Source: Nitrospirota bacterium
Lineage (GTDB): Bacteria; Nitrospirota; 9FT-COMBO-42-15; HDB-SIOI813
Direction: 5' to 3'
Assembly (NCBI GenBank): GCA_016217665.1
Contig: JACRHF010000092.1
Location: 1-40,331 of the forward strand
DNA length: 40,331 nt
Positions 4,192 to 19,662 of the stretch are shown here, in pieces (the first letter of the stretch is position 1; every line of letters begins with the position of its first letter). A program made the position numbers and the translations under genes. Below the pieces are notes generated by a model that was not told where the DNA came from, searched no databases, and saw only the letters and a list, made by a program, of their open reading frames with translations.

Positions 4192-5184
4192 TCAAGGAGT
4201 AAAGGGTTGTTCCCTTTCAAAATCAGGACAGTAGTAGTCTTTGCTGGAATAGTCCTGGACCCAGCCGTTCTCAAGCCCAGACCGGTCAAGCCATTCCATG
4301 ACCTTTTCATATTCCCGCGGGTTGATCGGCCTTGATACGAGCGGATATCTCCCTGCCTTATGGGTCGGAAAGTATTGAGACATCGTACTGATAAACGTCT
4401 TCTCTCCAACCTCATCGCGGATAAATCTCAGACTTTCTTCGCTTCCGGCAAGATCATTGGGCAATACCAGATGTCTGATGATTAACCCTTTTATCGCAAT
4501 GCCGTCAGCATCAACGACAAGGTCTCCCACCTGTCTCTTCATCTCGACAATCGCGGGCCTCGCATGCCGCACGTAATCCTTTACCTTTGAATATTTAAGC
4601 GCAGCCCTGTCGTCGCTGTACTTCAGGTCCGGGAGGTAGATATCGATGATGCCCTCTAAAAGACTAAGTGTCTGAATGGAATCGTAGCCATTGCTATTAT
4701 AGACCAGGGGGACACAGAGGCCCTTTGAAGCGGCGATCTCAACCCCCCTGACTATCTGCGCCGCAAAGTGGGAAGGGGATACGAAGTTGATATTGTGGCA
4801 TCCCAGCGATTGCAGTTCCAGCATGATGGCCGCCAGACGCTCCATGCTGACCTCATTTCTCCTTAATGAACCCGCCGGTTGAGAGATCTGATGGTTCTGA
4901 CAGAAGACGCAACGGAGATTGCAGTGGCCAAAGAATATGGTCCCTGAACCTCTTGTCCCTGAGAGTACAGGTTCTTCACCATGGTGGGCACAGTAGCTCT
5001 CCACGATAGGAAGATGGCCGGAACGGCAGAAACCTCTCTCCCCCTTGACCCTGTCCACCCGGCAGGACCGAGGACAGAGGGCGCAGTCCCGGAGGACCTC
5101 TTCAAGGGCAAGGGCCCGATCATGGAGCTCACCCGATTCCAAGAGGCTGAGGTATCCTGGTTTAAGTTCCAAATCTCTTTTCAA
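4192..5184 (-). CDS. PflX/PflA-like radical SAM protein (COG1313-type)
   Basis: CALCPRSCRVDR plus radical SAM signature CNLRCVFCQNHQIS; 3' end of upstream ORF overlaps its start. Confidence 0.87.
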   Translation of the reverse strand: MKRDLELKPGYLSLLESGELHDRALALEEVLRDCALCPRSCRVDRVKGERGFCRSGHLPIVESYCAHHGEEPVLSGTRGSGTIFFGHCNLRCVFCQNHQISQPAGSLRRNEVSMERLAAIMLELQSLGCHNINFVSPSHFAAQIVRGVEIAASKGLCVPLVYNSNGYDSIQTLSLLEGIIDIYLPDLKYSDDRAALKYSKVKDYVRHARPAIVEMKRQVGDLVVDADGIAIKGLIIRHLVLPNDLAGSEESLRFIRDEVGEKTFISTMSQYFPTHKAGRYPLVSRPINPREYEKVMEWLDRSGLENGWVQDYSSKDYYCPDFEREQPFTP

Positions 5185-6463
5185 TCTGCACCCCTATCTT
5201 GTTGAGGAACTCGTTGGGCAATTCGCCGCCGGCAAATATATAGACATAATCATTCGGAACCTCAACGATCTCCTTAGGGGTCGAAATCTTTATGTCCTTT
5301 TCCCCAATCTCCCTGATATTGGATTGATGCATTATTGTAACACACTTTTTGGCAACCATGCCATCCAGGCGTTCCTTGTTCATGGGCTTGATGCGGCTAA
5401 AGGCCTCACCCCTGTAAGAAAGGATGACCTTGTTCCCAGGCTGGCTCCCCAGGGCGATGGCCGCCTCTACTGCGCTGTCACCGCCGCCGACCACAACGAT
5501 ATTCTGATGCTGGTGCTGCTCAGGTTCCAATAGACGATAAGACACCTTGGGCAGATTCTCTCCGGGGACCCCGAGCTTTCTTGGGGTGCCGCGCCGGCCT
5601 ATGGCCAATACAATGTTCCGGGCAAGGTACTCCCCCTTCGCTGTAAAGATCTTAAACCCCTCGTCTTCGAATTTGACATCCAGCATCTTTTCCTTCGTCC
5701 TGATGGTCAGGACTGTCTTCCCTATGACTTCCTCCCAGAGGGAGAGGAGCGCCTCTTTGGTAGTCTCCTTCAGTTTTACCCTTCCATACATCGGGAGGTC
5801 CATGGGAGAAGTCATCACGATTTTATGCCTCGGATACTGAAGTACCGTTCCTCCGATATCGTCCTGCTCGATGGTTACAGACTTTAGATTATGCCTTACA
5901 GCGGCAAGGGATGCAGAGATCCCTGCAGGCCCCGCGCCAATGATGGCGAGGTCATAGAGATCGCCCCTTTTTTTCTCATCGCTTCGGAGAAGACAGGAGA
6001 GATATTCAACGACCTCACGCCCCTGAGTCACCGCGTTCTTAATCAGCCCCATGCCCCCCAGCTCTCCTACAATAAAGACCCCTTTGATATTCGTCTCAAA
6101 ATTGGGCGTCACATGCGGAATATCCACCCCCCGGGTCTCGGTCCCAAAGACCAGTTTTATTGCACCAATGGGGCAGGCTATGGCACAGGCCCCGTGTCCT
6201 ATGCAGCGTGATGCATTAATCAGACTGGCCCGGCCGTTGACAAGGCCGATGATATCCTTTTCAGGACATGCCTTGACACAGGCGCCGCTGCCAATACACT
6301 TTGCCGGGTCGACATAGGGGTGGATATGCACTGGTTCATGAGTCCCATATTCCTTTGCCTTTTTTATCTTTTTTAAATTCTTCCGGCTTCTCTTGCCCTG
6401 TTGAATGGTATAGATACCGACTACCGAGGATATAAAGAAAAATGAGATGATAGACGTAAGCAT
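5162..6463 (-). CDS. Membrane-anchored Fe-S/FAD NAD(P)-dependent oxidoreductase (thioredoxin-reductase/YpdA-like flavoprotein fused to ferredoxin-type domain)
   Basis: N-terminal hydrophobic segment; CIGSGACVKACP and CIGHGACAIACP Fe-S motifs; dinucleotide-binding motifs 'AIIGAGPAGISASLAA' and 'VVVGGGDSAVEAAIALG'. Confidence 0.87.
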   Translation of the reverse strand: MLTSIISFFFISSVVGIYTIQQGKRSRKNLKKIKKAKEYGTHEPVHIHPYVDPAKCIGSGACVKACPEKDIIGLVNGRASLINASRCIGHGACAIACPIGAIKLVFGTETRGVDIPHVTPNFETNIKGVFIVGELGGMGLIKNAVTQGREVVEYLSCLLRSDEKKRGDLYDLAIIGAGPAGISASLAAVRHNLKSVTIEQDDIGGTVLQYPRHKIVMTSPMDLPMYGRVKLKETTKEALLSLWEEVIGKTVLTIRTKEKMLDVKFEDEGFKIFTAKGEYLARNIVLAIGRRGTPRKLGVPGENLPKVSYRLLEPEQHQHQNIVVVGGGDSAVEAAIALGSQPGNKVILSYRGEAFSRIKPMNKERLDGMVAKKCVTIMHQSNIREIGEKDIKISTPKEIVEVPNDYVYIFAGGELPNEFLNKIGVQIEKRFGT

Positions 6464-6516
6464 CTTTTAGTCCCCCCGAGGTAATGCCTCACAGATAAAT
6501 CCTTAGTCCACTCAAG

Positions 6517-7782
6517 TTAAAAACTCCATGAAATACGGGACAGGATGGTATTTGTATAATAATCCTTGGCCTGTCTCCCTTCGTAGGATAGGGATAGAGT
6601 CCACCTTCTGCTTAGAGTCCAATATCCGGATACATCATATGTAGTAATATTATCGGTGTAATCGGCAATGTCATAGGCACCCGTTATGTAAGAACTGTGT
6701 AACGTGACTTGAAATACATCGTCAAAGAACCGGCTGAACTGTACGTTGTAAGTGTTAGAATTAGAACTGTAACTATCAGCCAAAGTAGCGCTCATATCCA
6801 TAGAGATATGCTGGTTCAGTAGATTGTCGTTCCTGAAACCGATCTGATACGTACTGGAACTCCTTAATTTCTTTTCGAGGGCATTGTAATGCAAGCTCTG
6901 GAGATCATATCTCCCGTATAGGGTATACCGCTCACGGAACCTGTAGTCACCTTGGACATAATAGGATTGCTGCCGGCTCGTTTCGATCTCAAAGTCCATC
7001 GATCTGTAAAGTTGGTACGCCCGAAACTGATTATAACCAAAGGTGAGGCCCTTTCTGTAGTCAGGCCGGTAGGAAAGTTCCACCATGACATTTGTCAGGT
7101 CACTTTTTTCTTCGAACTGGTTTATATCCACAGTCAATGATCCATAGAGTCTTATTTGTTTCAAAGGGAAAAAGGAGGATTGTCCATATATATATTCACG
7201 ATCCGTTCTCCCTTTATATCCGCTATAGATATAGGCGAGATTGGCAAACAACTCCTCCTTACGATAGAAAATGTATCCACCCACCGTGGTGAAGTCTGAG
7301 TTTAATTTTCCAGTATAAGGGTCCGGCTTTGTCCCCCCAAAGATTCCTATGCCGAGTTTTTCCCCTTGCAGAATAAGATTGACTCCATCCACCCTTTCAA
7401 CATATAACTCCTTGGGCCATAGTCTGCCTGCTGCGAAATAGTACCCCTCGACTCCGGTATATTCAAGATTCAGGGTATCAATACGTTCATTGTTGCTATG
7501 CCTGTTATAATCTTTCGACCCGAGGTTATTCCGCTCTCTCCCTTCAAAATGAAAGGAAAGACTTCCAGCCTTATTAAATTTATTGGCATCCAACCGGATA
7601 CGGGTGGATAGAAGATTAAAATCATAAGCAGAACTGGAATCATCAGTATAATAATCTTCTAAGGAAACAAGGCCGTGATATTCCGCACCAAACACTTTGT
7701 GTGCGGTATTTAGAAGGGTCAATAAAAAGAGGACGCTGTATAAAACTGCAGATGTTTTTCTCATCACTTTAATGTGTGCCAT
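6517..7782 (-). CDS. Predicted outer-membrane beta-barrel protein (porin-like partner of multiheme cytochrome)
   Basis: N-terminal signal-like segment, alternating aromatic/polar strands throughout, C-terminal 'ILSRISWSF' ending in Phe; start overlaps the stop of the cytochrome gene. Confidence 0.75.
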   Translation of the reverse strand: MAHIKVMRKTSAVLYSVLFLLTLLNTAHKVFGAEYHGLVSLEDYYTDDSSSAYDFNLLSTRIRLDANKFNKAGSLSFHFEGRERNNLGSKDYNRHSNNERIDTLNLEYTGVEGYYFAAGRLWPKELYVERVDGVNLILQGEKLGIGIFGGTKPDPYTGKLNSDFTTVGGYIFYRKEELFANLAYIYSGYKGRTDREYIYGQSSFFPLKQIRLYGSLTVDINQFEEKSDLTNVMVELSYRPDYRKGLTFGYNQFRAYQLYRSMDFEIETSRQQSYYVQGDYRFRERYTLYGRYDLQSLHYNALEKKLRSSSTYQIGFRNDNLLNQHISMDMSATLADSYSSNSNTYNVQFSRFFDDVFQVTLHSSYITGAYDIADYTDNITTYDVSGYWTLSRRWTLSLSYEGRQAKDYYTNTILSRISWSF

Positions 7783-10700
7783 AAGGATGACATCTGAGGC
7801 ATTCAGAGTTTAGTGTCGTCTTATGTACCTTTTTCCCTCTGGCTGTATGGCATTCGATACATCCTCCTTTGTTCGTAAAGGCCCCTCCTGGATGACAGGC
7901 GGTGCAATTAGTCGGATTGGTCCCGGCATGATTGAGAGGGAAAGTTGTCGTAGGATGCGTGAAGGTCCAGGAGCTGGTGGACTTATGGCAGGTCTCACAG
8001 GTCGTCCAGTTATACGTTGTATGGCTCGCAGGCTTCGCAGGCGTACTGTAGCTCAAATGGCAACTCGAACACCCGGAGGTCGCCGTGCTATGCGTAAAGG
8101 CCCAGGCCGTCGTAGACTTGTGGCAGGTCTCGCAGGTCGTCCAGTTATTCGTCGTATGACTCGCAGGTTTTGCAGGATTGCTGTTTGTCAGATGACAGCC
8201 CGAACAGTTGGTGGTCACAGAGGGATGGATATGAGAGGTCCACGTTGTGATTGATTTATGGCAGTTCTCGCAGGTTGTGGAATATCTTGTCGTGTTGTTA
8301 ATATGTGTCGCAGGCCTCGTGCTGAGATGACAGCTCGAGCAGCCGGTGGTGGCCGTCGTATGGATAAACGTCCATGCCGTCGTGGACTTATGGCAGGTCT
8401 CGCAGGTCGTCCAGTTGTTCGTCGTATGACTCGCAGGCTTTGCCGGCGTACTGTAGCTCTGGTGGCAGCTCGAACACCCCGTCGTCGCCGTGGTATGTTT
8501 ACGCGAGGCCCATAAGGCTGTCGATATATGACAATTTTCACAGGTACTCGAATATGTCGTAGGATTGCTGGAATGACTTGCAGGCCTGTCACTGAGATGA
8601 CAGCTCGAACACCCGGTGGTGGCTGTGGTATGGATGAACGTCCATGCCGTCGTGGATTTATGGCAGGTCTCGCAGGTCGTCCAGTTATTCGTCGTATGAC
8701 TCGCAGGCTTTGCCGGCGTACTGTAGCTCTGGTGGCAGCTCGAACACCCGGTGGTGGCTGTGGTATGTTTACGCGATGACCAGGCCGTTGTTGATATATG
8801 ACAACTCTCACAGGTACTCGAATATGTCGTAGGATTGCTGGAATGACTTGCAGGCCTGTCACTGAGATGACAACTGGAGCAGTTGCTGCTTACCGATGGG
8901 TGAGTGTGCGATGTCCATGCAGTGATTGAGGTATGGCAGACCTCACAGGTTGTTGTGTTTTTTGCCGTACTAGTTGTGTGGCTAGCGGGTCTGCCATTGA
9001 TATGGCACCTTGAACAACCCTTACTCAATTGGACATGTTTAAAAGACCATGAAGTAAAGTTTGGCGAATGACATTCCGTACAGTTCTTGCTATATCCTTT
9101 GGAGAGATGATCAGACGCGGAGTTATATTGGCTGAGATGACAACTAAAGCATGCCGATGTCGTATTCCTGTAAACGCGGTTTCTGTGGCAGTCCTGACAT
9201 TCTGCCGTCCTGTGCCCTCCGATCAAGGGGTAGCCTGTCTTACTGTGATCAAACTGAGTGGGGTTCCATGTCTTTTCACTGTGACATTGAGCGCAGTTTT
9301 GGCTGCCAAATTGGTTGAAGTGTGGATCTGCATGACACTGGCTGCAATACCGGCTGGCCCCTTTATACTCTCCTTTAGTCTTGTGACAACTCGTACAGAC
9401 GATATCATTATGAACTCCTCTTAATTCAATGCCTCCCTCCTTCTTATGGTTAAATTTCCTTGGGAACCAGTCATTCTGTGTATGACATGAGCCGCACTCT
9501 TCTTTGAATTCCCCTTTGTGAATATCCTTATGGCAATCAATGCACTTTTCCGCCTTTGTCTTGTATCTCTTGTTCTCATGACACTTTTCACACTCTGTGC
9601 TTTTATGCTGTCCAATGAGCGGAAAATTCGTCTGTCTGTTATGGTCGAGGGTAGACTTTTTCCAATCCGCTGTGCTGTGGCATTTCGCACAGTTATTCCC
9701 CAATTCTTTTTTATGGGTATCGTCCTTCTCGTGACAATCATAGCAGCGGTCAGGCAGGGGCTTGTATTTTCCATCCGCATGACATTTCTCACAGGAGGTC
9801 TTTAAGTGCTTTCCGTCCAGCCTGTATCCCTCATACTCCCGGGCATTATGCTCAAAGAGGGACGGCTTCCAACCTTTCATGGTGTGGCAGGCCTCGCACT
9901 TCTTATCTTTAAACTGTCCCTTATGCGTATCCTTATGACAGTCCGAGTTATCACAGCTCTTGTAATTTAAAGGCTTGTAGCGCCCCTGAACGTGACACTT
10001 CTCACAGACCGTTTCTACATGCTTTCCCTCTAATTTATATCCCATGTACTTGGGTTCATTATGCTCAAAGAGGGACGGCTTCCACCCTTTCAGGGTATGA
10101 CAGGCCTCGCACTTCTTATCTTTAAACTGTCCCCTGTGGGTATCCTTATGACAGTCCGAGTTATCGCAGCTCTTGGTATTCAGAGGCTTGTAACGCCCCT
10201 TTACGTGACACTTCTCACAGGCCGTCTTTATATGTTTTCCTTCAAGTTTATATCCGGTATATTCCGGTGCCGCATGATTAAAGAGGGATGGTTTCCAACC
10301 CTTGATGTTATGGCAGGCCTCACAGACCTGATCTGTAAACTGCCTTTTGTGCGGGTCATTGTGGCAGGCTGAATTGTTGCAGGTTTTAAAAGGGATCCCG
10401 GTGAGTTGGTTACTCTTGTGACACTTGTCACATTTTACCTGGAGATGCTTATCGATGAGGGGATATTTTGTTTTGGCGTGGTCTGTGGGGACCTTTTTCC
10501 AACTCTCGGTTGTGTGACACTCTTTGCATGCTGGTTTATCTTTATGAGGATCTTTATGACAGGTACGACACTCTTCAAACTTATCAACCCGATATCTATT
10601 TTTTACATGACACTTATCACACTGAGTCTCAATATGTTTGCCAGTAAGGGCATACTTTGAATCCCTGTCATGATTGAATTTTTCAATTTCCTTCCATCCC

Positions 10701-11200
10701 TTGATGTTGTGACAGCGCTCACAGTCCCTGTCCAGTTCCCCTTTATGTTTATCTTTATGACAGGAGATACACTCTTGGGACAGGCCTGTATAATTCCCCC
10801 CTTTTTTATGACACTTCTCGCATTTGGCAGTGGAGTGTTTATCCAGGAGGGGATAATCTGTATCTTTGTGATTGAACTTATCCTTTTCCAGTGAGACTAT
10901 TTTAAAACTTCCACCCTTGTGGTCCGTGTGGCATTTAATGCAAGCATCTGTATACTTTGCATGGACCCCCGCCTTTTTCCTGATCCTCTCTGCCAGCTTA
11001 TCGTGGCAATCAAGACATTTAGTGTCAGGGATCCCGCCTCCCAGGGCGTGGCATTTCGTGCAGCTTGTAATTCCCTCGTATTTTTTATGAGGAGATGTGA
11101 GGTCTCCTGGACTTATCAACGATCCAATGCCTTCCTGCGCCAGGGCCGGTGAGCAAGACAGAAGAATCATCATGATAAGGAATAATTTTTTAAGCAGCAT
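7769..11200 (-). CDS. Giant multiheme c-type cytochrome (1143 aa; manual count 46 CXXCH + 3 CX4CH motifs)
   Basis: Signal peptide MLLKKLFLIMMILLSCSPALAQ; dense CXXCH motifs over the whole length; CNNSACH and two CDNSDCH CX4CH motifs; internal repeats. Confidence 0.95.
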   Translation of the reverse strand: MLLKKLFLIMMILLSCSPALAQEGIGSLISPGDLTSPHKKYEGITSCTKCHALGGGIPDTKCLDCHDKLAERIRKKAGVHAKYTDACIKCHTDHKGGSFKIVSLEKDKFNHKDTDYPLLDKHSTAKCEKCHKKGGNYTGLSQECISCHKDKHKGELDRDCERCHNIKGWKEIEKFNHDRDSKYALTGKHIETQCDKCHVKNRYRVDKFEECRTCHKDPHKDKPACKECHTTESWKKVPTDHAKTKYPLIDKHLQVKCDKCHKSNQLTGIPFKTCNNSACHNDPHKRQFTDQVCEACHNIKGWKPSLFNHAAPEYTGYKLEGKHIKTACEKCHVKGRYKPLNTKSCDNSDCHKDTHRGQFKDKKCEACHTLKGWKPSLFEHNEPKYMGYKLEGKHVETVCEKCHVQGRYKPLNYKSCDNSDCHKDTHKGQFKDKKCEACHTMKGWKPSLFEHNAREYEGYRLDGKHLKTSCEKCHADGKYKPLPDRCYDCHEKDDTHKKELGNNCAKCHSTADWKKSTLDHNRQTNFPLIGQHKSTECEKCHENKRYKTKAEKCIDCHKDIHKGEFKEECGSCHTQNDWFPRKFNHKKEGGIELRGVHNDIVCTSCHKTKGEYKGASRYCSQCHADPHFNQFGSQNCAQCHSEKTWNPTQFDHSKTGYPLIGGHRTAECQDCHRNRVYRNTTSACFSCHLSQYNSASDHLSKGYSKNCTECHSPNFTSWSFKHVQLSKGCSRCHINGRPASHTTSTAKNTTTCEVCHTSITAWTSHTHPSVSSNCSSCHLSDRPASHSSNPTTYSSTCESCHISTTAWSSRKHTTATTGCSSCHQSYSTPAKPASHTTNNWTTCETCHKSTTAWTFIHTTATTGCSSCHLSDRPASHSSNPTTYSSTCENCHISTALWASRKHTTATTGCSSCHQSYSTPAKPASHTTNNWTTCETCHKSTTAWTFIHTTATTGCSSCHLSTRPATHINNTTRYSTTCENCHKSITTWTSHIHPSVTTNCSGCHLTNSNPAKPASHTTNNWTTCETCHKSTTAWAFTHSTATSGCSSCHLSYSTPAKPASHTTYNWTTCETCHKSTSSWTFTHPTTTFPLNHAGTNPTNCTACHPGGAFTNKGGCIECHTARGKKVHKTTLNSECLRCHPYGTH
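7800..8930 (-). repeat. In-gene tandem repeat region of the cytochrome (period about 270 bp, 90 aa, 4 hemes per unit)
   Basis: 'tccatgccgtcgtgga..tatggcaggtctcgcaggtcgtccagtt' recurs at 8371 and 8641 (offset exactly 270), with a more diverged copy at 8101; the first two are nearly identical over the whole unit. Confidence 0.85.
9830..10500 (-). repeat. In-gene tandem repeat, period about 213 bp (71 aa), in N-terminal half of the cytochrome
   Basis: 'gacggcttcca(a/c)cc' at 9861 and 10074 and 'gatggtttccaacc' at 10287, offsets 213 and 213; protein CEACHxxKGWKPSLFxHxxxxYxGYKLEGKHxxTxCEKCHVxGRYKPLNxKSCDNSDCHKDTH. Confidence 0.8.
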
Positions 11201-11206
11201 AGTTGT

Positions 11207-12103
11207 TTACGCCGTATGTGTGGACCGGAACAAATAATAGATAACGACATGTAACATCATGATCAAAAACATCACAATCGCTAAAGGGATATGAACAATA
11301 TGCCAGTAATGCAGAAGTCTATGGGATGTGGAAAGATAATTCCTTTTTCTGATCAGGGCAGCCTTTTTCTTGAGGAGGAAATCGATCTCCTTTCTTATCT
11401 TCCGCGGGATGTGGTAGTTGGTTTTTAATATCCTGTTTAACTGAAATATTCGGTAAGAAATCGTAACATCGCTCTGAAGCGTTACCAGAAGGGTTTTTAG
11501 TAAGCCAATATTTTCAGAATCAATGTCTGCCGCATTGATGACCTTGCTGAAATCAGAGATTTTAATTCCTCCTGAATATTTAGTTAACTGGGCTTCAATG
11601 GTTTCTATCGTACATTCGATATCGTGGACTTCCAGTTCGGTCCCTGCCAGACTCCTCGGTATCTGCACATAGATATATCTTCCTAATATTCCAAAGATCA
11701 TTGTGATGATCATGGACCAAAAGCTGGTCGCGATGATCCCGCCGAACTTGAATGTGGTATGAAGGGTGACAAACAGGGGGCCCAGAATGCCCAAGAACAT
11801 GTGGGCCGTCAGCCAATGACGCAATGAACCAAAGGATGTGAACCATGCAATCCTCTTACGAACACTGTAGAGCATCATGATCACCATCATTCCAGAACCG
11901 AGCCATCCAAGAAGATGCCAGATTCCCTTTCCTGGTTCATAGATCACGGGATATTCTTTCAGGTAATCATACTGGTGCATCAGGTGCAACATACTATAGT
12001 CTGGCTCGTATCTCTCCATGTAGCTTTCATAGCCTCCGGCACATAAGGTCAGCAGGAGGGTGATAATAAGAAACAGATAAAGAGTAAAGTCTTCTTTATT
12101 CAT
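11207..12103 (-). CDS. Cytochrome-b-like integral membrane protein (putative quinol/heme b electron-transfer subunit)
   Basis: Multiple TM helices with spaced His (WHLLGWLGSGMM, LRHWLTAHMFLGILGPLFVTLHTTFKFGG, LLHYWHIVHIPLAIVMFLIMMLHVVIYYL); immediately upstream of the cytochrome gene. Confidence 0.72.
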   Translation of the reverse strand: MNKEDFTLYLFLIITLLLTLCAGGYESYMERYEPDYSMLHLMHQYDYLKEYPVIYEPGKGIWHLLGWLGSGMMVIMMLYSVRKRIAWFTSFGSLRHWLTAHMFLGILGPLFVTLHTTFKFGGIIATSFWSMIITMIFGILGRYIYVQIPRSLAGTELEVHDIECTIETIEAQLTKYSGGIKISDFSKVINAADIDSENIGLLKTLLVTLQSDVTISYRIFQLNRILKTNYHIPRKIRKEIDFLLKKKAALIRKRNYLSTSHRLLHYWHIVHIPLAIVMFLIMMLHVVIYYLFRSTHTA

Positions 12104-12121
12104 AATTTATCGGTTATACGA

Positions 12122-12157
12122 CTTTGGGATTTTATTCCCAAATATATTATTTGTCAA
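12122..12157 (-). promoter_or_regulatory. Predicted sigma70-type promoter with palindromic operator over the -10, driving the cytochrome operon
   Basis: Minus strand TTGACA (12157-12152), 17-nt spacer, TAAAAT (12134-12129); palindrome TTGGGA-N6-TCCCAA; same arrangement as 28838-28873. Confidence 0.75.
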
Positions 12158-13786: not shown

Positions 13787-16700
13787 TTATTTGAGGTGCC
13801 AGCCGCGCCAAAGGGTATATATGGCCGGGATGACCACGAGGGTCAATATCGTTGATGATACCATCCCGCCTACCATCGGAGCTGCGATCCTCTTCATCAC
13901 CTCTGAACCTGTGCCGCTTCCCCACATGATCGGGAGGAGGCCTGCCATGATTGCGACTACTGTCATCATCTTGGGCCTGACCCTCTCCACTGCCCCCTCC
14001 ATGACTGCAGCGTGCAGATCCTTTATGGTCTGCATCTCGTGGCGGTTGAACCTCTCCTGATAGGCATGATCTAAGTAAATCAACATGACCACTCCGGTCT
14101 CTGCCGCGACACCTGCAAGGGCAATAAAACCCACCCCAACGGCAATACTCATGTTATACCCCAGCAGATACATCAGCCACACCCCTCCAACCATTGCAAA
14201 GGGTAAAGAGAGCATGACTATCAGTGTCTCCGCAACGTTGCCAAAATTAAAATAAAGGAGCAGGAATATGATGGCGAGTGTCAATGGGACGATGACCTTA
14301 AGCTTTCCATAGGCCCTTTCCATATACTCATACTGGCCGCTCCATGTGACATAATAGCCGGGTGGGAATTTTACCTTTTCTAATACCGCCTTTTGGGCAT
14401 CTGCCACATAACTTCCAATATCCCTCCCCCGCACATCCACATAGACCCATGTGTTTAATGAAGCATTTTCAGTCTTTATGCCCGCCACCCCCTTGCTCAA
14501 TCTTATATCAGCTATCTGGGATAGCGGTATGTACTCCCCATGCATAGTGGGTATCAGGACACGGCCTATCTTATCGACACTATCCCTAAGCTCCCTCTTG
14601 TATCTCACATTCACAGGATATCTCTCAAGACCCTCAACTGTGGTCGTTATATTTTCTCCGCCGATGGCAGACATGATAACCTGCTGTATATCCTCTATCT
14701 TCAGGCCATATCTTGCTGCCTCATCCCTCTTTATATCTATATCCACATAATAGCCACCGATAATCCTCTCTGCAAAGGCGCTGGCCGTTCCGGGCACATT
14801 CTTTAGGGCCCCTTCAATATCCACTGCTAACTGTTCTATGGTCTTTAAATCTTTTCCAAAGACCTTCACTCCCACAGGCGTCCTGATACCGGTTGCCAGC
14901 ATATCCACCCTGTTCTTTATAGGCATGGACCACTGGATAGGCACGCCCGGCATCTCCAGTGCCACACTCATCTCCTGAACAAGCTTATCCACAGTCATAC
15001 CAGGCCTCCACTGACTCTCTGGTTTCAGATTTATCGTCGTCTCAAACATCTCAAGCGGCGCCGGATCTGTGGCTGTCTGCGCCCTCCCTACTTTCCCAAA
15101 GACCTGTTCTACCTCCGGGAAAGATTTGATAATCCTGTCGGTGGTCTGGAGAAGCTCTCCTATCTTTGTAACTGAAACGCCAGGAAAGGTCGCTGTCATG
15201 AACATAAGGGAGCCTTCATACAGTGTTGGCATAAACTCACTCCCGAGTCTTTTAAACGGATAGAGGGTTGCCACAAGCACTAAAATTGCCAGCAGAAGGG
15301 TGAGAATCTTTATACGAAGGACAATATTTATGACGGGTCTATAGACCCATATCATTAACCGTGTGATAGGATTTTTTCTCTCCGGAAGGATCCGTCCTCT
15401 TATGAAAATCCCCATCAATACAGGTACAAGAGTTATTGACAGCAAGGCCGATGCCGCCATGGCAAATGTCTTGGTGAATGCCAGAGGTTTAAAGAGCCTC
15501 CCCTCCTGGGCCTCCAGAGTAAAAACAGGCATGAATGAGACGGTGATGATGAGGAGGGAGAAAAACAGCGGCGGCCCGACCTCTTTTGCTGCGTCAAGCA
15601 CTATCTCCCAGTGGTCCTTCCTGCCCCCTTCCCTTTCGATATGCTTATGGGCATTTTCTATCATCACGATGGCGCCGTCTATCATAGCGCCGATGGCAAT
15701 AGCAATGCCGCCAAGACTCATGATATTGGCATTGATCTTGAGATAATACATGATAGCGAAGGATAGGAGGATGGCCACAGGAAGCATAAGGATGGCAACG
15801 AGGGCGCTCCTGAAATGAAGGAGAAAGACGATGCAGACAAGGGAGACGATGAGAGACTCTTCAATGAGCTTTTCCTTCAGCGTATCTATCGCCCTGTGAA
15901 TGAGGTCACCCCTGTCATATGTCGTGATAATTTGTACGCCTGGTGGAAGACCGGGTTTTAGTTCTTCTATCTTCTTCTTGACATTATCTATAACCTTCAG
16001 GGCATTTTCACCAAACCGCATAATAACAATTCCACCCACGACCTCACCCTCGCCATCTCTGTCCACAATCCCACGTCGCTCATCCGGCCCAAGCTCAACT
16101 CTTGCTATATTCTGTACCCTGATAGGTGTTCCACTCCGGTCTACCTTGAGCACGATATTTTCTATGTCAGGTATCTTCTTGATATATCCAAGCCCCCTGA
16201 CCATGTACTCACGCTCTGTCAGCTCAACGACTCTACCCCCAACATCAATATTGCTCATCTTGATAGAGTCTATGACATCTTTAAGTGAGATGTTATAGGT
16301 GATGAGCTTACTGGGGTCTATATTCACCTGATACTGCTTAACGAAGCCGCCGATGGATGCCACTTCAGAGACCCCTGGCACCTTTGTCAGTTGATACCGG
16401 ACATACCAGTCCTGGATACTCCGGAGCTCTGCAAGGTCATATCCCTTCCCCTCTATGCTATATTCAAAGACCCATCCGACCCCGGTAGCATCCGGCCCCA
16501 GGGAGGGCGAGACCCCTCCGGGGAGTTTTCCCGCAGCAAAGTTAAGATATTCTAAGACCCTTGATCTTGCCCAGTAGATATCCGTCCCATCTTCAAAAAT
16601 AATATAGACGAAGGATACACCAAAGAAAGAAAAGCCCCTCACCACCTTGGCCTTAGGAACCGCCAACATTGCTGTGGTAAGGGGATATGTGACCTGGTCT

Positions 16701-16885
16701 TCAACCACCTGCGGTGCCTGACCAGGGTACTCCGTGTAGATGATCACCTGGACATCAGAGAGATCAGGGATAGCGTCGAGAGGGGTTTTATAGATTGCCC
16801 ATATCCCCCAAGCCACTGCAAAAGCGGTAAAGAGGAGGATCAAAAACTTGTTATTTATAGAAAATTCTATGATCTTTTTTAACAT
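13787..16885 (-). CDS. cusA: CusA/CzcA-type heavy-metal efflux RND transporter
   Basis: 1032 aa RND permease; 'LDAIPDLSDVQVIIYTEYPGQAPQVVEDQVTYPL', 'GAMIDGAIVMIENAHKHIE', 'VGFIALAGVAAETGVVMLIYL' typical of the HME-RND family. Confidence 0.95.
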   Translation of the reverse strand: MLKKIIEFSINNKFLILLFTAFAVAWGIWAIYKTPLDAIPDLSDVQVIIYTEYPGQAPQVVEDQVTYPLTTAMLAVPKAKVVRGFSFFGVSFVYIIFEDGTDIYWARSRVLEYLNFAAGKLPGGVSPSLGPDATGVGWVFEYSIEGKGYDLAELRSIQDWYVRYQLTKVPGVSEVASIGGFVKQYQVNIDPSKLITYNISLKDVIDSIKMSNIDVGGRVVELTEREYMVRGLGYIKKIPDIENIVLKVDRSGTPIRVQNIARVELGPDERRGIVDRDGEGEVVGGIVIMRFGENALKVIDNVKKKIEELKPGLPPGVQIITTYDRGDLIHRAIDTLKEKLIEESLIVSLVCIVFLLHFRSALVAILMLPVAILLSFAIMYYLKINANIMSLGGIAIAIGAMIDGAIVMIENAHKHIEREGGRKDHWEIVLDAAKEVGPPLFFSLLIITVSFMPVFTLEAQEGRLFKPLAFTKTFAMAASALLSITLVPVLMGIFIRGRILPERKNPITRLMIWVYRPVINIVLRIKILTLLLAILVLVATLYPFKRLGSEFMPTLYEGSLMFMTATFPGVSVTKIGELLQTTDRIIKSFPEVEQVFGKVGRAQTATDPAPLEMFETTINLKPESQWRPGMTVDKLVQEMSVALEMPGVPIQWSMPIKNRVDMLATGIRTPVGVKVFGKDLKTIEQLAVDIEGALKNVPGTASAFAERIIGGYYVDIDIKRDEAARYGLKIEDIQQVIMSAIGGENITTTVEGLERYPVNVRYKRELRDSVDKIGRVLIPTMHGEYIPLSQIADIRLSKGVAGIKTENASLNTWVYVDVRGRDIGSYVADAQKAVLEKVKFPPGYYVTWSGQYEYMERAYGKLKVIVPLTLAIIFLLLYFNFGNVAETLIVMLSLPFAMVGGVWLMYLLGYNMSIAVGVGFIALAGVAAETGVVMLIYLDHAYQERFNRHEMQTIKDLHAAVMEGAVERVRPKMMTVVAIMAGLLPIMWGSGTGSEVMKRIAAPMVGGMVSSTILTLVVIPAIYTLWRGWHLK

Positions 16886-16890
16886 AATTT

Positions 16891-18387
16891 TTAATGACTA
16901 TGCTCTATCGTCTTCTCTTTCTTTTGAGGCCCTGAATCCCCCTTTGCATTCTCCCCTTGCTGGTGTCCAACCATCCCGGACAGGGCGGCCTTTAGACTGC
17001 TCTCTGAATCCACTAAAAAGTTGGCAGAGGTCACAACTGCCTCACCCTCTTTTACTCCTCCAAGGATCTCATAATAACCCTCTGCCTTTGCCCCTACCTC
17101 TACATCACGGGGTTCAAATCTACCATCCCCTTTGTCAATAATGACGACCTGCCTGACACCTGTATCTATCAGCGCCGAATCCGGTACTGCCACAGCATCT
17201 CTTGCCACATCGACCTCTAATTCTACCTTTACATACATCTCCAGTTTTAACTTGTGTTCAGGATTTGGTAGTTCAAACCTGATCTTGGCGGTTCTTACTT
17301 CTGCACCCCCCTCAGGTGTATATCTGATGGTGCCAAGGTGTGTATAGATATGCTGGATCTCACCGATGTACACCTCACTCGGAGAGTACGAGGGCATAAT
17401 CTTTGCCTTCTGGCCCACCTTAACAAAGGGGAGCTCGTATTCATACAGCTCTCCATAGATCCAGACGACCGAGTGGTCGATAATTTTAAAGAGCGGTTCT
17501 CCTGCCTCAATCCTCGTCCCCTCAACCACCATCTTCTCTGTAACACTCCCCTGAGCAGGGATACGGATTGTCATGGTCCTTGTAATCTTACCGTCTTTTT
17601 CAAGCTTCTTTATCTGATCTTCAGATATATCCCAGTATTTAAGCCTCAGCCTCGTCGCTGCCAACAGGGATTCCGCATTCTCTCTTATTTCCGGGTAAGG
17701 ACTCTCTTTCACCTTTTCCACCGCTCTGAAAGCCAGCAGGTACTCCTCCTGGGCAGAAACAAGCTCAGGGCTATATAACTCTAAGAGTGGTTCATCATGG
17801 CTCACCATTTGATCCGTCCTGTTTACATAGAGCTTTTCTACCCACCCCTCGACCTTGGCACTTATGTTAAAAACCTTCCTTTCATCCGGGGCGATCCTTC
17901 CGACAGTCCTTATAATCCTCTTCAAAGAGCGCCTGGTTACTACAGCCGACTTTACCCCGATCTTCTGGATCTTCTCAGGGCTTATCCTAACAGTCCCGGG
18001 GACCTCCTCCAAGCGCCCCTCTTCCTCATAGACCGGTATATAATCCATCCCCATCTCATCTTTTTGGGGTATGGGAGAGGTCGCCGTGGGGTTCATGGGA
18101 TGGCGGTAGAATAAGACCTTTCTTTCGCCCTTTTCCTTCTCTGCAGGCCCTGCCTCTTCTTCATAGACCGGGATGTAGTCCATCCCCATCTCGTCTTTCC
18201 TGGGTGTCGGTGATGTGACCTTGGGATTCATCGGATGCCGGTAGAACAGGACCTTTCTTTCCGTCTGCTGGGGGCCCTCCCCACTCTTCACTCCAAAAAG
18301 ATTGATGATATATTCCTTATTAAGAACCCCAAGCCCGATCACGATGCCGGCAAGGATGAGAACCAACAACATTGCTAACCTTTTCAT
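16891..18387 (-). CDS. cusB: RND efflux periplasmic adaptor with two tandem heavy-metal-binding domains
   Basis: Membrane fusion protein; two copies of 'ERKVLFYRHPMNP(K/T)(V/A)TSP(T/I)P(R/Q)KDEMGMDYIPVYEEE'. Confidence 0.92.
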   Translation of the reverse strand: MKRLAMLLVLILAGIVIGLGVLNKEYIINLFGVKSGEGPQQTERKVLFYRHPMNPKVTSPTPRKDEMGMDYIPVYEEEAGPAEKEKGERKVLFYRHPMNPTATSPIPQKDEMGMDYIPVYEEEGRLEEVPGTVRISPEKIQKIGVKSAVVTRRSLKRIIRTVGRIAPDERKVFNISAKVEGWVEKLYVNRTDQMVSHDEPLLELYSPELVSAQEEYLLAFRAVEKVKESPYPEIRENAESLLAATRLRLKYWDISEDQIKKLEKDGKITRTMTIRIPAQGSVTEKMVVEGTRIEAGEPLFKIIDHSVVWIYGELYEYELPFVKVGQKAKIMPSYSPSEVYIGEIQHIYTHLGTIRYTPEGGAEVRTAKIRFELPNPEHKLKLEMYVKVELEVDVARDAVAVPDSALIDTGVRQVVIIDKGDGRFEPRDVEVGAKAEGYYEILGGVKEGEAVVTSANFLVDSESSLKAALSGMVGHQQGENAKGDSGPQKKEKTIEHSH

Positions 18388-18393
18388 TTTTCC

Positions 18394-19662
18394 CTACTCC
18401 TCCAGGATCTCCGCCCCGACAACACCCTCTAAGGAGGCGATCCTCTTATAGTATGTGACGAGCGACCCGATGTAATCAATTCTCGTCTTTCTTAGAATCC
18501 TCTCTGTATCCAGTAAGGTTAAAAAGTCTATCTTCCCGGTCTGGTAATTTTTAAGCGCTGAATCAAAGGAGAGCTCGACCTGAGGGAGCAGGCTCGTCTC
18601 ATAGAGCGTCCTGATCCTGTCGGCGCTCTCCACTTTGACGACCCCCTCTTTCACCTCTGCAGACCGGATATTCTCTTCTGCCCTGAGTTTATACTGGCCG
18701 GCCTCTACAGTGCTCTGGGCCTCCGTGACCTGGCTGTCATACTTGCGCTGCCATATCGGGATGTTGATCTGGAACATGGCATCCCAGGCATCGAATCTCC
18801 CATCCCGCTGGATGGGGGCAAGATCTACCATAAAGTCAGGATAGTAGTTTTTTCTGGCAAGCTCCACTCCGATCTGATTCGCCTCGATTTCATATCTCAT
18901 CTTCTGTAAAGCGGGGTTGATCTCCAGGGCCTTTTCAGTAAGCTCTTCAACCTTTATGTCCACTTTTTTTTGGGGGATCGCAGAAGGGTCCTGGAGAGGG
19001 GCCTCCTGGGAACGGTTTAACAGCGCTTTTAGCCCTGCCTGTCCAACCTCCCTTTCAGCTTCAAGTTCGGTGATTTCATTAATCAACATGGTCAACTCAA
19101 CCTGGGCTTTGATCACATCCTGCTGGGATGCCTGACCTGTGGCATATTTGATCTTCGCAATCTCCGTCATGCTGGAGAGGAGTCCTTTGATCTCTTTTAG
19201 AATCTTTATGGATTCGGATAGTAAGAGGTACTCATAATAGGCATCCTTGACCATGGTAACGATCTCGAGCTCCCTGACCTTTACTTCAGCCTCGGCCATC
19301 AAGACCTCTTTGAGTGCCATGCCCTTCTGCAAGGACCTCTTCCCCGGGTAAGGAAACATCTGGCTGATGCCGTATTTTGTCTGCATTGCATTCCCGGGGC
19401 TTGGAAATGGATTGTCCCTTGAGAGGTCTTCCATCTCTATCCGGAAGGATGGATCATCAAGAACCCCCTCTGCCCTGGCTTTAGCCTCCTTTGCCTTGAT
19501 ATTCCGGCGCAGGGCCTGTAATTCAGGATTATTATTCTTAGCCTCCTCAATAAGGCCCCTGAGAGAAAGGGTCTCTTGAGCAAAGACCGGCACAGAGATT
19601 AATAAAGAAGTTAGAAGCAAGAAGCAAGAAGCAAGAAGCAAGATAAAGGCTTGTACCCTCAC
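18394..19662 (-). CDS. TolC-family outer membrane efflux protein
   Basis: Signal peptide and helical OEP pattern; in operon with cusB/cusA-like genes; GTG start. Confidence 0.9.
   Translation of the reverse strand: MRVQAFILLLASCFLLLTSLLISVPVFAQETLSLRGLIEEAKNNNPELQALRRNIKAKEAKARAEGVLDDPSFRIEMEDLSRDNPFPSPGNAMQTKYGISQMFPYPGKRSLQKGMALKEVLMAEAEVKVRELEIVTMVKDAYYEYLLLSESIKILKEIKGLLSSMTEIAKIKYATGQASQQDVIKAQVELTMLINEITELEAEREVGQAGLKALLNRSQEAPLQDPSAIPQKKVDIKVEELTEKALEINPALQKMRYEIEANQIGVELARKNYYPDFMVDLAPIQRDGRFDAWDAMFQINIPIWQRKYDSQVTEAQSTVEAGQYKLRAEENIRSAEVKEGVVKVESADRIRTLYETSLLPQVELSFDSALKNYQTGKIDFLTLLDTERILRKTRIDYIGSLVTYYKRIASLEGVVGAEILEE
19614..19641. repeat. Heptanucleotide tandem repeat (GAAGCAA)x4 in the TolC-like signal-peptide coding region
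   Basis: Four perfect copies gaagcaa-gaagcaa-gaagcaa-gaagcaa. Confidence 0.95.

Follow-up and report, generated by a model that had tools for sequence, protein, structure and literature searches.

A predicted PCC3-like electron conduit with a single-chain giant cytochrome in a Nitrospirota bacterium

Clusters of the PCC3 kind are known from Gallionellaceae, Leptothrix and other bacteria (He et al. 2017, PMC5566968), and published accounts (including PMC8788666) present their conduit function as predicted. The PCC3 inner-membrane protein (IMP) is about 300 aa in length, with five helices, two WX3HX13H motifs and an SGXXG motif placed on the fourth helix (He et al. 2017, PMC5566968). A beta-barrel, of up to 42 strands in published examples, is encoded in the same cluster, along with separate periplasmic and extracellular cytochromes that are very large, repeat-rich and of low complexity. 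Outer-membrane barrels and multiheme cytochromes also come together in the MtrCAB, MtoAB and PioAB systems and in the Omb/Oma/Omc and Ext conduits of Geobacter.

The locus described here lies in a window of 40,331 nucleotides, the whole stretch of DNA that was analyzed, which corresponds to contig C71 in the draft genome of a Nitrospirota bacterium (1.71 Mb, 77% complete). Five ORFs follow one another on its minus strand, in the order cytochrome b, giant cytochrome, barrel, Fe-S/FAD protein and radical SAM protein, with the coordinates given in the initial annotation, and the cluster probably specifies a PCC3-type conduit that carries electrons across the cell envelope. With PCC3 it shares an IMP close to 300 aa in length that bears two WX3HX13H motifs, a beta-barrel in the same cluster, and very large, repeat-rich, low-complexity cytochrome sequence. 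It differs in having one cytochrome chain where PCC3 has two, FGXXG in place of SGXXG in its family (f1), a smaller barrel, and an Fe-S/FAD protein that lies outside the published definition. From these comparisons we classify the cluster as a PCC3 variant that departs from the two-cytochrome feature and from one motif, SGXXG. Unlike MtrCAB, MtoAB and PioAB, it contains no decaheme DmsE-family cytochrome at cut-off (decahem_SO model, 50.6 bits versus a cut-off of 192.2). From the Omb/Oma/Omc and Ext conduits it is set apart by family assignment alone, the window proteins having no Pfam or NCBIfam assignment to them. The initial annotation counted two members of the set as foreign to the well-known Mtr or Omb/Oma/Omc conduits. 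The set as a whole does not fall outside known conduits, as the IMP, the very large cytochrome and the barrel find counterparts in PCC3.

Gene order and neighboring genes

The IMP and cytochrome genes are separated by 6 bp, the cytochrome and barrel genes overlap by 14 bp, and 53 bp lie between the barrel and Fe-S/FAD genes. The short or overlapping junctions first reported thus include one genuine overlap; the other, between the last two ORFs, requires a TTG start for the radical SAM gene, whose homologs begin ~8 residues further in, and it may therefore be unreal. The order IMP–cytochrome–barrel is kept wherever it could be read, in five family members (one spans two contigs), so that cytochrome orthologs stay linked to barrel and IMP genes, and the Fe-S/FAD gene is next in line in four of the five. 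The same synteny, with the cytochrome in split form, occurs in other Nitrospirota, Proteobacteria, Bacteroidota and Ignavibacteria; the Bacteroidota loci include those of isolates (L051, L068, L074 and L111). The sample labels of cluster-bearing Nitrospirae relatives, nzgw272 and RIFCSPLOW2_12_42_9, are taken by us to denote New Zealand groundwater and the Rifle aquifer. Sequence searches of the PDB returned no match for the cytochrome, barrel and radical SAM proteins, and a single weak match (E 0.03) for the IMP.

The radical SAM protein (4192..5184, minus strand; PF04055) is PflX/AmmeMemoRadiSam-like. Its gene adjoins the FAD gene in G000, G003, G004 and G007, lies elsewhere in G006, and was looked for and not found in G005. 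Being adjacent in some close relatives only, it was ruled out as a core component; the PflX-like protein originally counted in the set is present, but this inconsistent linkage marks it as a loosely linked neighbor.

Three family members have CusA-like heavy-metal RND efflux genes close to the conduit cluster (window positions 13787-19662, L017 and L020), and a gene for an HMA-like protein is nearby in the window, L019 and L020. Elsewhere in the genome, contig C15 (L128, L129) carries five homologs of COX1, the heme-copper oxidase subunit I, within ~21 kb, with cytochrome b/Fe-S fusion proteins encoded between them. Contig C26 (L136:230-3578) encodes a DmsE-family decaheme cytochrome and an MtrB/PioB-like barrel, a second conduit of the classical type.

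The single-chain cytochrome and its barrel

The cytochrome (1143 aa) contains 46 CXXCH and 3 CX4CH motifs, which bears out the initial estimate of ~49 hemes; shuffles of the same sequence contained 0.74 CXXCH on average and 6 at most. Since all three CX4CH sites pair with ordinary CXXCH motifs when aligned with the homolog L035, 49 is a fair motif-based count of heme sites. Very many heme motifs at a low ratio of residues per heme, here 23.3, are characteristic of PCC3.

The most unusual trait of the locus, overlooked in the initial annotation, is that, as judged from alignments, this chain is a fusion of two PCC3-type cytochromes that are separate elsewhere. Residues 1-649 (the N-part; 9254..11200, minus strand) comprise a signal peptide, by inspection of the ordinary secreted type, and 27 heme motifs in a Lys/Glu-rich sequence that matches split periplasmic cytochromes and would be their equivalent. 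Residues 650-1143 (the C-part; 7769..9253, minus strand) hold 22 heme motifs, are encoded by a region with 135-bp tandem repeats, and match split extracellular cytochromes in the same way. The split pair of the Nitrospirota relative L029 tiles the window protein in alignment (residues 3-645 and 648-1078), the split periplasmic cytochrome L064 covers residues 1-624, and the split extracellular cytochrome L049 covers residues 649-1103. Composition switches at the junction, Lys+Arg falling from 19% to 7% and Ser+Thr rising from 11% to 36%.

Family f1 carries the cytochrome as one chain, while other Nitrospirota and Proteobacteria have two genes instead, one Lys/Glu-rich (21-27 motifs) and one Ser/Thr-rich. 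Further fused forms come from L034 and L035, MAGs named Desulfuromonadales and Deltaproteobacteria respectively, and from L071. Family f26 is also fused, but it is less similar and its junction less distinct: L168 divides into 30 + 12 motifs by a looser junction motif, and L169 has no junction match. The fused trait needs two changes in the FAD tree and two in the N-part tree, so the fusion may have arisen once or a few times and then passed from lineage to lineage; binning error is another possibility.

The number of motifs in the N-part is 27 in seven of nine f1-type fused homologs and 24 in the remaining two, and the separate periplasmic cytochrome of L029 likewise has 27, whereas the C-part ranges from 11 to 44 across the fused homologs, the count for L019 being a lower bound as a contig end cuts this locus. 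A near-constant N-part followed by a variable C-part fits a periplasm-spanning segment with an external tail; in this proposed topology the span across the periplasm would be fixed and the outer portion variable. Should the fused cytochrome span the outer membrane, it would form a continuous, single-chain heme wire, in which the 27 retained motifs would act as a built-in gauge of periplasm width alongside a variable external part, and it would offer a natural design for studies of long-range electron transfer.

The adjoining gene (6517..7782, minus strand) encodes a predicted outer-membrane beta-barrel of 421 aa, with no cysteine and a C-terminal Phe. Its AlphaFold2 model has about 22 strands at modest confidence (mean pLDDT 57), and the best Foldseek matches of this model are outer-membrane barrels, including MtrB of the Mtr complex. 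Profile comparison relates it (E 6.7e-29) to barrels encoded in 29 split clusters, most of them from Bacteroidota and some from Ignavibacteria; these barrels are longer by an N-terminal stretch of roughly 100-120 residues. Prediction, Foldseek and this homology all point to a barrel in the cluster, as in PCC3, and agree with the earlier assignment of the ORF. Barrels of the window family recurrently accompany large cytochromes, and in the split clusters of Bacteroidota the barrel gene adjoins the second cytochrome gene. No MtrB homology emerged for the barrel: profile comparison with the genome's own MtrB-like protein gave no match, and the MtrB_PioB family was not matched in Pfam or NCBIfam.

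The inner-membrane cytochrome and its flavoprotein partner

The gene first annotated as an inner-membrane cytochrome b (11207..12103, minus strand) encodes a 298-aa di-heme b-type cytochrome, which corresponds in length and in its two WX3HX13H motifs to the IMP described by He et al. The residues W97, H101, H115, W267, H271 and H285 of these motifs, which include the heme-ligand histidines, are invariant in an alignment of 11 sequences. The SGXXG position reads FGILG in the window protein (FGXXG in family f1) and SGXXG in f3 and f9 homologs. Pfam returned nothing above threshold, the match to Ferric_reduct being sub-threshold only. The structure model is of low confidence and served solely for the positions of helices and their count, which agrees with the five of PCC3; a Foldseek search with it gave nothing usable.

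The Fe-S/FAD protein (5162..6463, minus strand) is a probably N-terminally anchored oxidoreductase with two Fe-S motifs and an FAD/NAD(P)H portion that is YpdA/thioredoxin-reductase-like in Pfam and NCBIfam, and its flavin fold is apparently circularly permuted (alignment A1). It shares the FAD and NAD(P)H Rossmann domains with YpdA/Bdr and the thioredoxin reductases, but adds a ferredoxin-like domain and the N-terminal anchor, has GAGPAG where YpdA has GGGPCG and hence lacks the cysteine there, and carries their C-terminal FAD motif on the N-terminal side. This motif, ETNIKGVFIVGELGG, precedes the GxGPxG motif, an order seen in all 87 homologs. When the segment bearing it was moved to the end of the query, the alignment with PDB 7a76 reached chain residue 297 rather than 274 and its score rose from 108.6 bits (core alone) to 116. 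In family f1 the first Fe-S motif has Ser at a usual Cys position; the second has His.

With the FAD protein family alone as query, at least 80 loci were found across Bacteroidota, Ignavibacteria, Nitrospirota, Proteobacteria and others, and in nearly all of them the IMP gene is near the FAD gene. The two are ≤400 bp apart in 66 of the 82 loci carrying both, a set that includes Nitrospirota loci first found via the IMP. The initial annotation had singled out the Fe-S flavoprotein as foreign to the well-known conduits. It is indeed outside the published definition of PCC3, but the gene neighborhoods mark it as a widespread, conserved partner of the inner-membrane cytochrome and not something peculiar to this locus. 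In the main text of He et al. (PMC5566968) neither FAD nor pyridine nucleotide is mentioned, and the main text of the CL21 paper does not mention FAD. A gene annotated as a ferredoxin-NADP reductase near decaheme PCCs (PMC13264449) gives a partial precedent for a flavoprotein partner, likened by annotation. In L036, L042 and L085 the IMP-FAD pair occurs with no cytochrome nearby, so that it may also work with other partners.

Given the likely N-terminal anchor, the NAD(P)H-type fold and the constant b-cytochrome partner, the simplest inference is that the Fe-S/FAD protein and the inner-membrane cytochrome exchange electrons directly. The pairing would suggest a quinone-bypassing route to extracellular electron transfer in several phyla, and it could serve as a marker for finding such clusters. 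It is also quite possible, though short of probable, that the IMP trades electrons with the quinone pool and that the FAD protein is an accessory rather than the point of entry. He et al. proposed a quinone-active role for the PCC3 IMP (PMC5566968), and in family f26 the fused cytochrome and barrel go with a cytochrome b561 (PF01292) in the inner-membrane place, and no FAD gene was seen in the vicinity. On this evidence the same outer module can work with a quinone-type inner module, and the inner module may be exchangeable. The association of the FAD gene with the IMP gene across phyla, sometimes in the absence of a cytochrome, argues against a quinone-linked conduit and suggests a direct partnership.

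Electron flow through the predicted conduit and its control

The reading of the cluster as a PCC3-like conduit draws on the 49 heme motifs together with an IMP that has both WX3HX13H motifs; on the tiling of the cytochrome by two separate PCC3-type cytochromes of a relative, which matches the switch in composition; on the near-constant N-part as against the variable C-part; on the model, Foldseek matches and profile homology of the barrel; on synteny and the proximity of IMP and FAD genes in nearly all FAD-query loci; on a Geobacter-type riboswitch class that precedes the operon in three relatives; and on the second, MtrA/MtrB-like conduit of the same genome. The likeness to porin-cytochrome sets that was originally drawn gains support from the predicted barrel and from the linkage of the orthologs. 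Counting against a conduit, both PCC3 clusters of Sideroxydans ES-1 are down-regulated on Fe(II) (PMC8788666). A split-type cluster is present in the iron-corroding Prolixibacter denitrificans (L051); we set this organism aside as functional support, its corrosion having been attributed to nitrite (PMC8368055).

In the mechanism that we propose, the Fe-S/FAD protein would act as a cytoplasm-facing NAD(P)H oxidoreductase that, alone or with the quinone pool, or the pool in its stead, exchanges electrons with the conduit. Electrons would pass via the two b-hemes of the inner-membrane protein to or from the single multiheme c-type cytochrome, whose 27-heme N-part would reach across the periplasm into the barrel, while the variable, Ser/Thr-rich C-part would meet the final donor or acceptor outside the cell, be it a metal mineral, another cell or a shuttle. 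NAD(P)H use, the direction of flow, the topology of the cytochrome halves and insertion into the barrel are points that we infer. The fuller picture, of one polypeptide running through the barrel from periplasm to exterior as a fixed-length 27-heme segment with an expandable outer tail, and fed from NAD(P)H via a circularly permuted flavoprotein and a b-type cytochrome with no quinones, is put forward tentatively.

Electrons leaving NAD(P)H for the outside would move energetically downhill. The reverse, in which the conduit takes electrons from Fe(II), Mn(II) or some other solid donor outside the cell and supplies them to oxygen respiration, is possible but less likely. PCC3 was first found in iron oxidizers (PMC5566968), and several heme-copper oxidases are encoded in the genome, an aa3-type and a cbb3-like one among them, so that uptake with oxygen as acceptor is possible; yet inward flow to NAD(P)+ would have to climb in potential and work against the membrane potential, and the operon contains no oxidase gene. 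That the giant cytochrome instead remains periplasmic, serving as a capacitor or sink next to an unrelated porin, is improbable: its secreted-type signal peptide would allow this and its surface exposure is a prediction, but the barrel gene overlaps the cytochrome gene and stays linked to it in the readable relatives, its split-form counterpart adjoins the second cytochrome gene in Bacteroidota, and barrels of the family recur with large cytochromes.

Upstream of the IMP gene, a promoter matching the consensus at 11 of 12 positions, TTGACA-N17-TAAAAT (12157-12129; whole feature 12123..12157, minus strand), is overlaid at its -10 box by the palindrome TTTGGGAATAAAATCCCAAA (12123-12142), a predicted operator. 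The layout recurs upstream of this gene in four of five f1 relatives, with one imperfect palindrome arm in L019. Two more near-identical sites with the same promoter layout occur in the genome, one at window positions 28853-28872 and one on contig C4, where it precedes a DUF6502-DUF5666 gene pair (L201:5588-7551) as a predicted operator over the pair's own promoter. In f26 such a pair lies directly upstream of the fused cytochrome, with similar palindromes. The DUF6502 protein is on these grounds a candidate regulator of the conduit operon and may be an autoregulated DNA-binding protein. No papers on DUF6502 were found in the literature covered. Its gene with the shared operator would provide an initial candidate for the regulator and, for this domain of unknown function, a candidate role.

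In three relatives a c-di-GMP-I riboswitch lies upstream of the IMP gene (G004, 60.2 bits; G005, 56 bits; G007, 65.5 bits). All three have A at the nucleotide mapped to position 20, and by this signature they would belong to the cGAMP type (A20) of the c-di-GMP-I class. In a Geobacter riboswitch, A at the corresponding site accompanies selectivity for cGAMP, and replacing it with G shifts the selectivity to c-di-GMP; extracellular cytochromes are under the control of riboswitches of this type in Geobacter (PMC6456294). An Rfam scan of the window detected no RNA family at cut-off, riboswitches included. The leader in L017 (9112-9560) has a terminator-like hairpin resembling the one that follows the riboswitch in L018-L020, with the aptamer absent, as if the riboswitch had been lost.

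The other palindromic promoter copy in the window (28838-28872) stands before a plus-strand gene run (28957-35438) that encodes three RimK-like ATP-grasp proteins, a mannitol-dehydrogenase-like protein, an MFS transporter and a porin O/P, possibly a small-molecule pathway co-regulated with the conduit.
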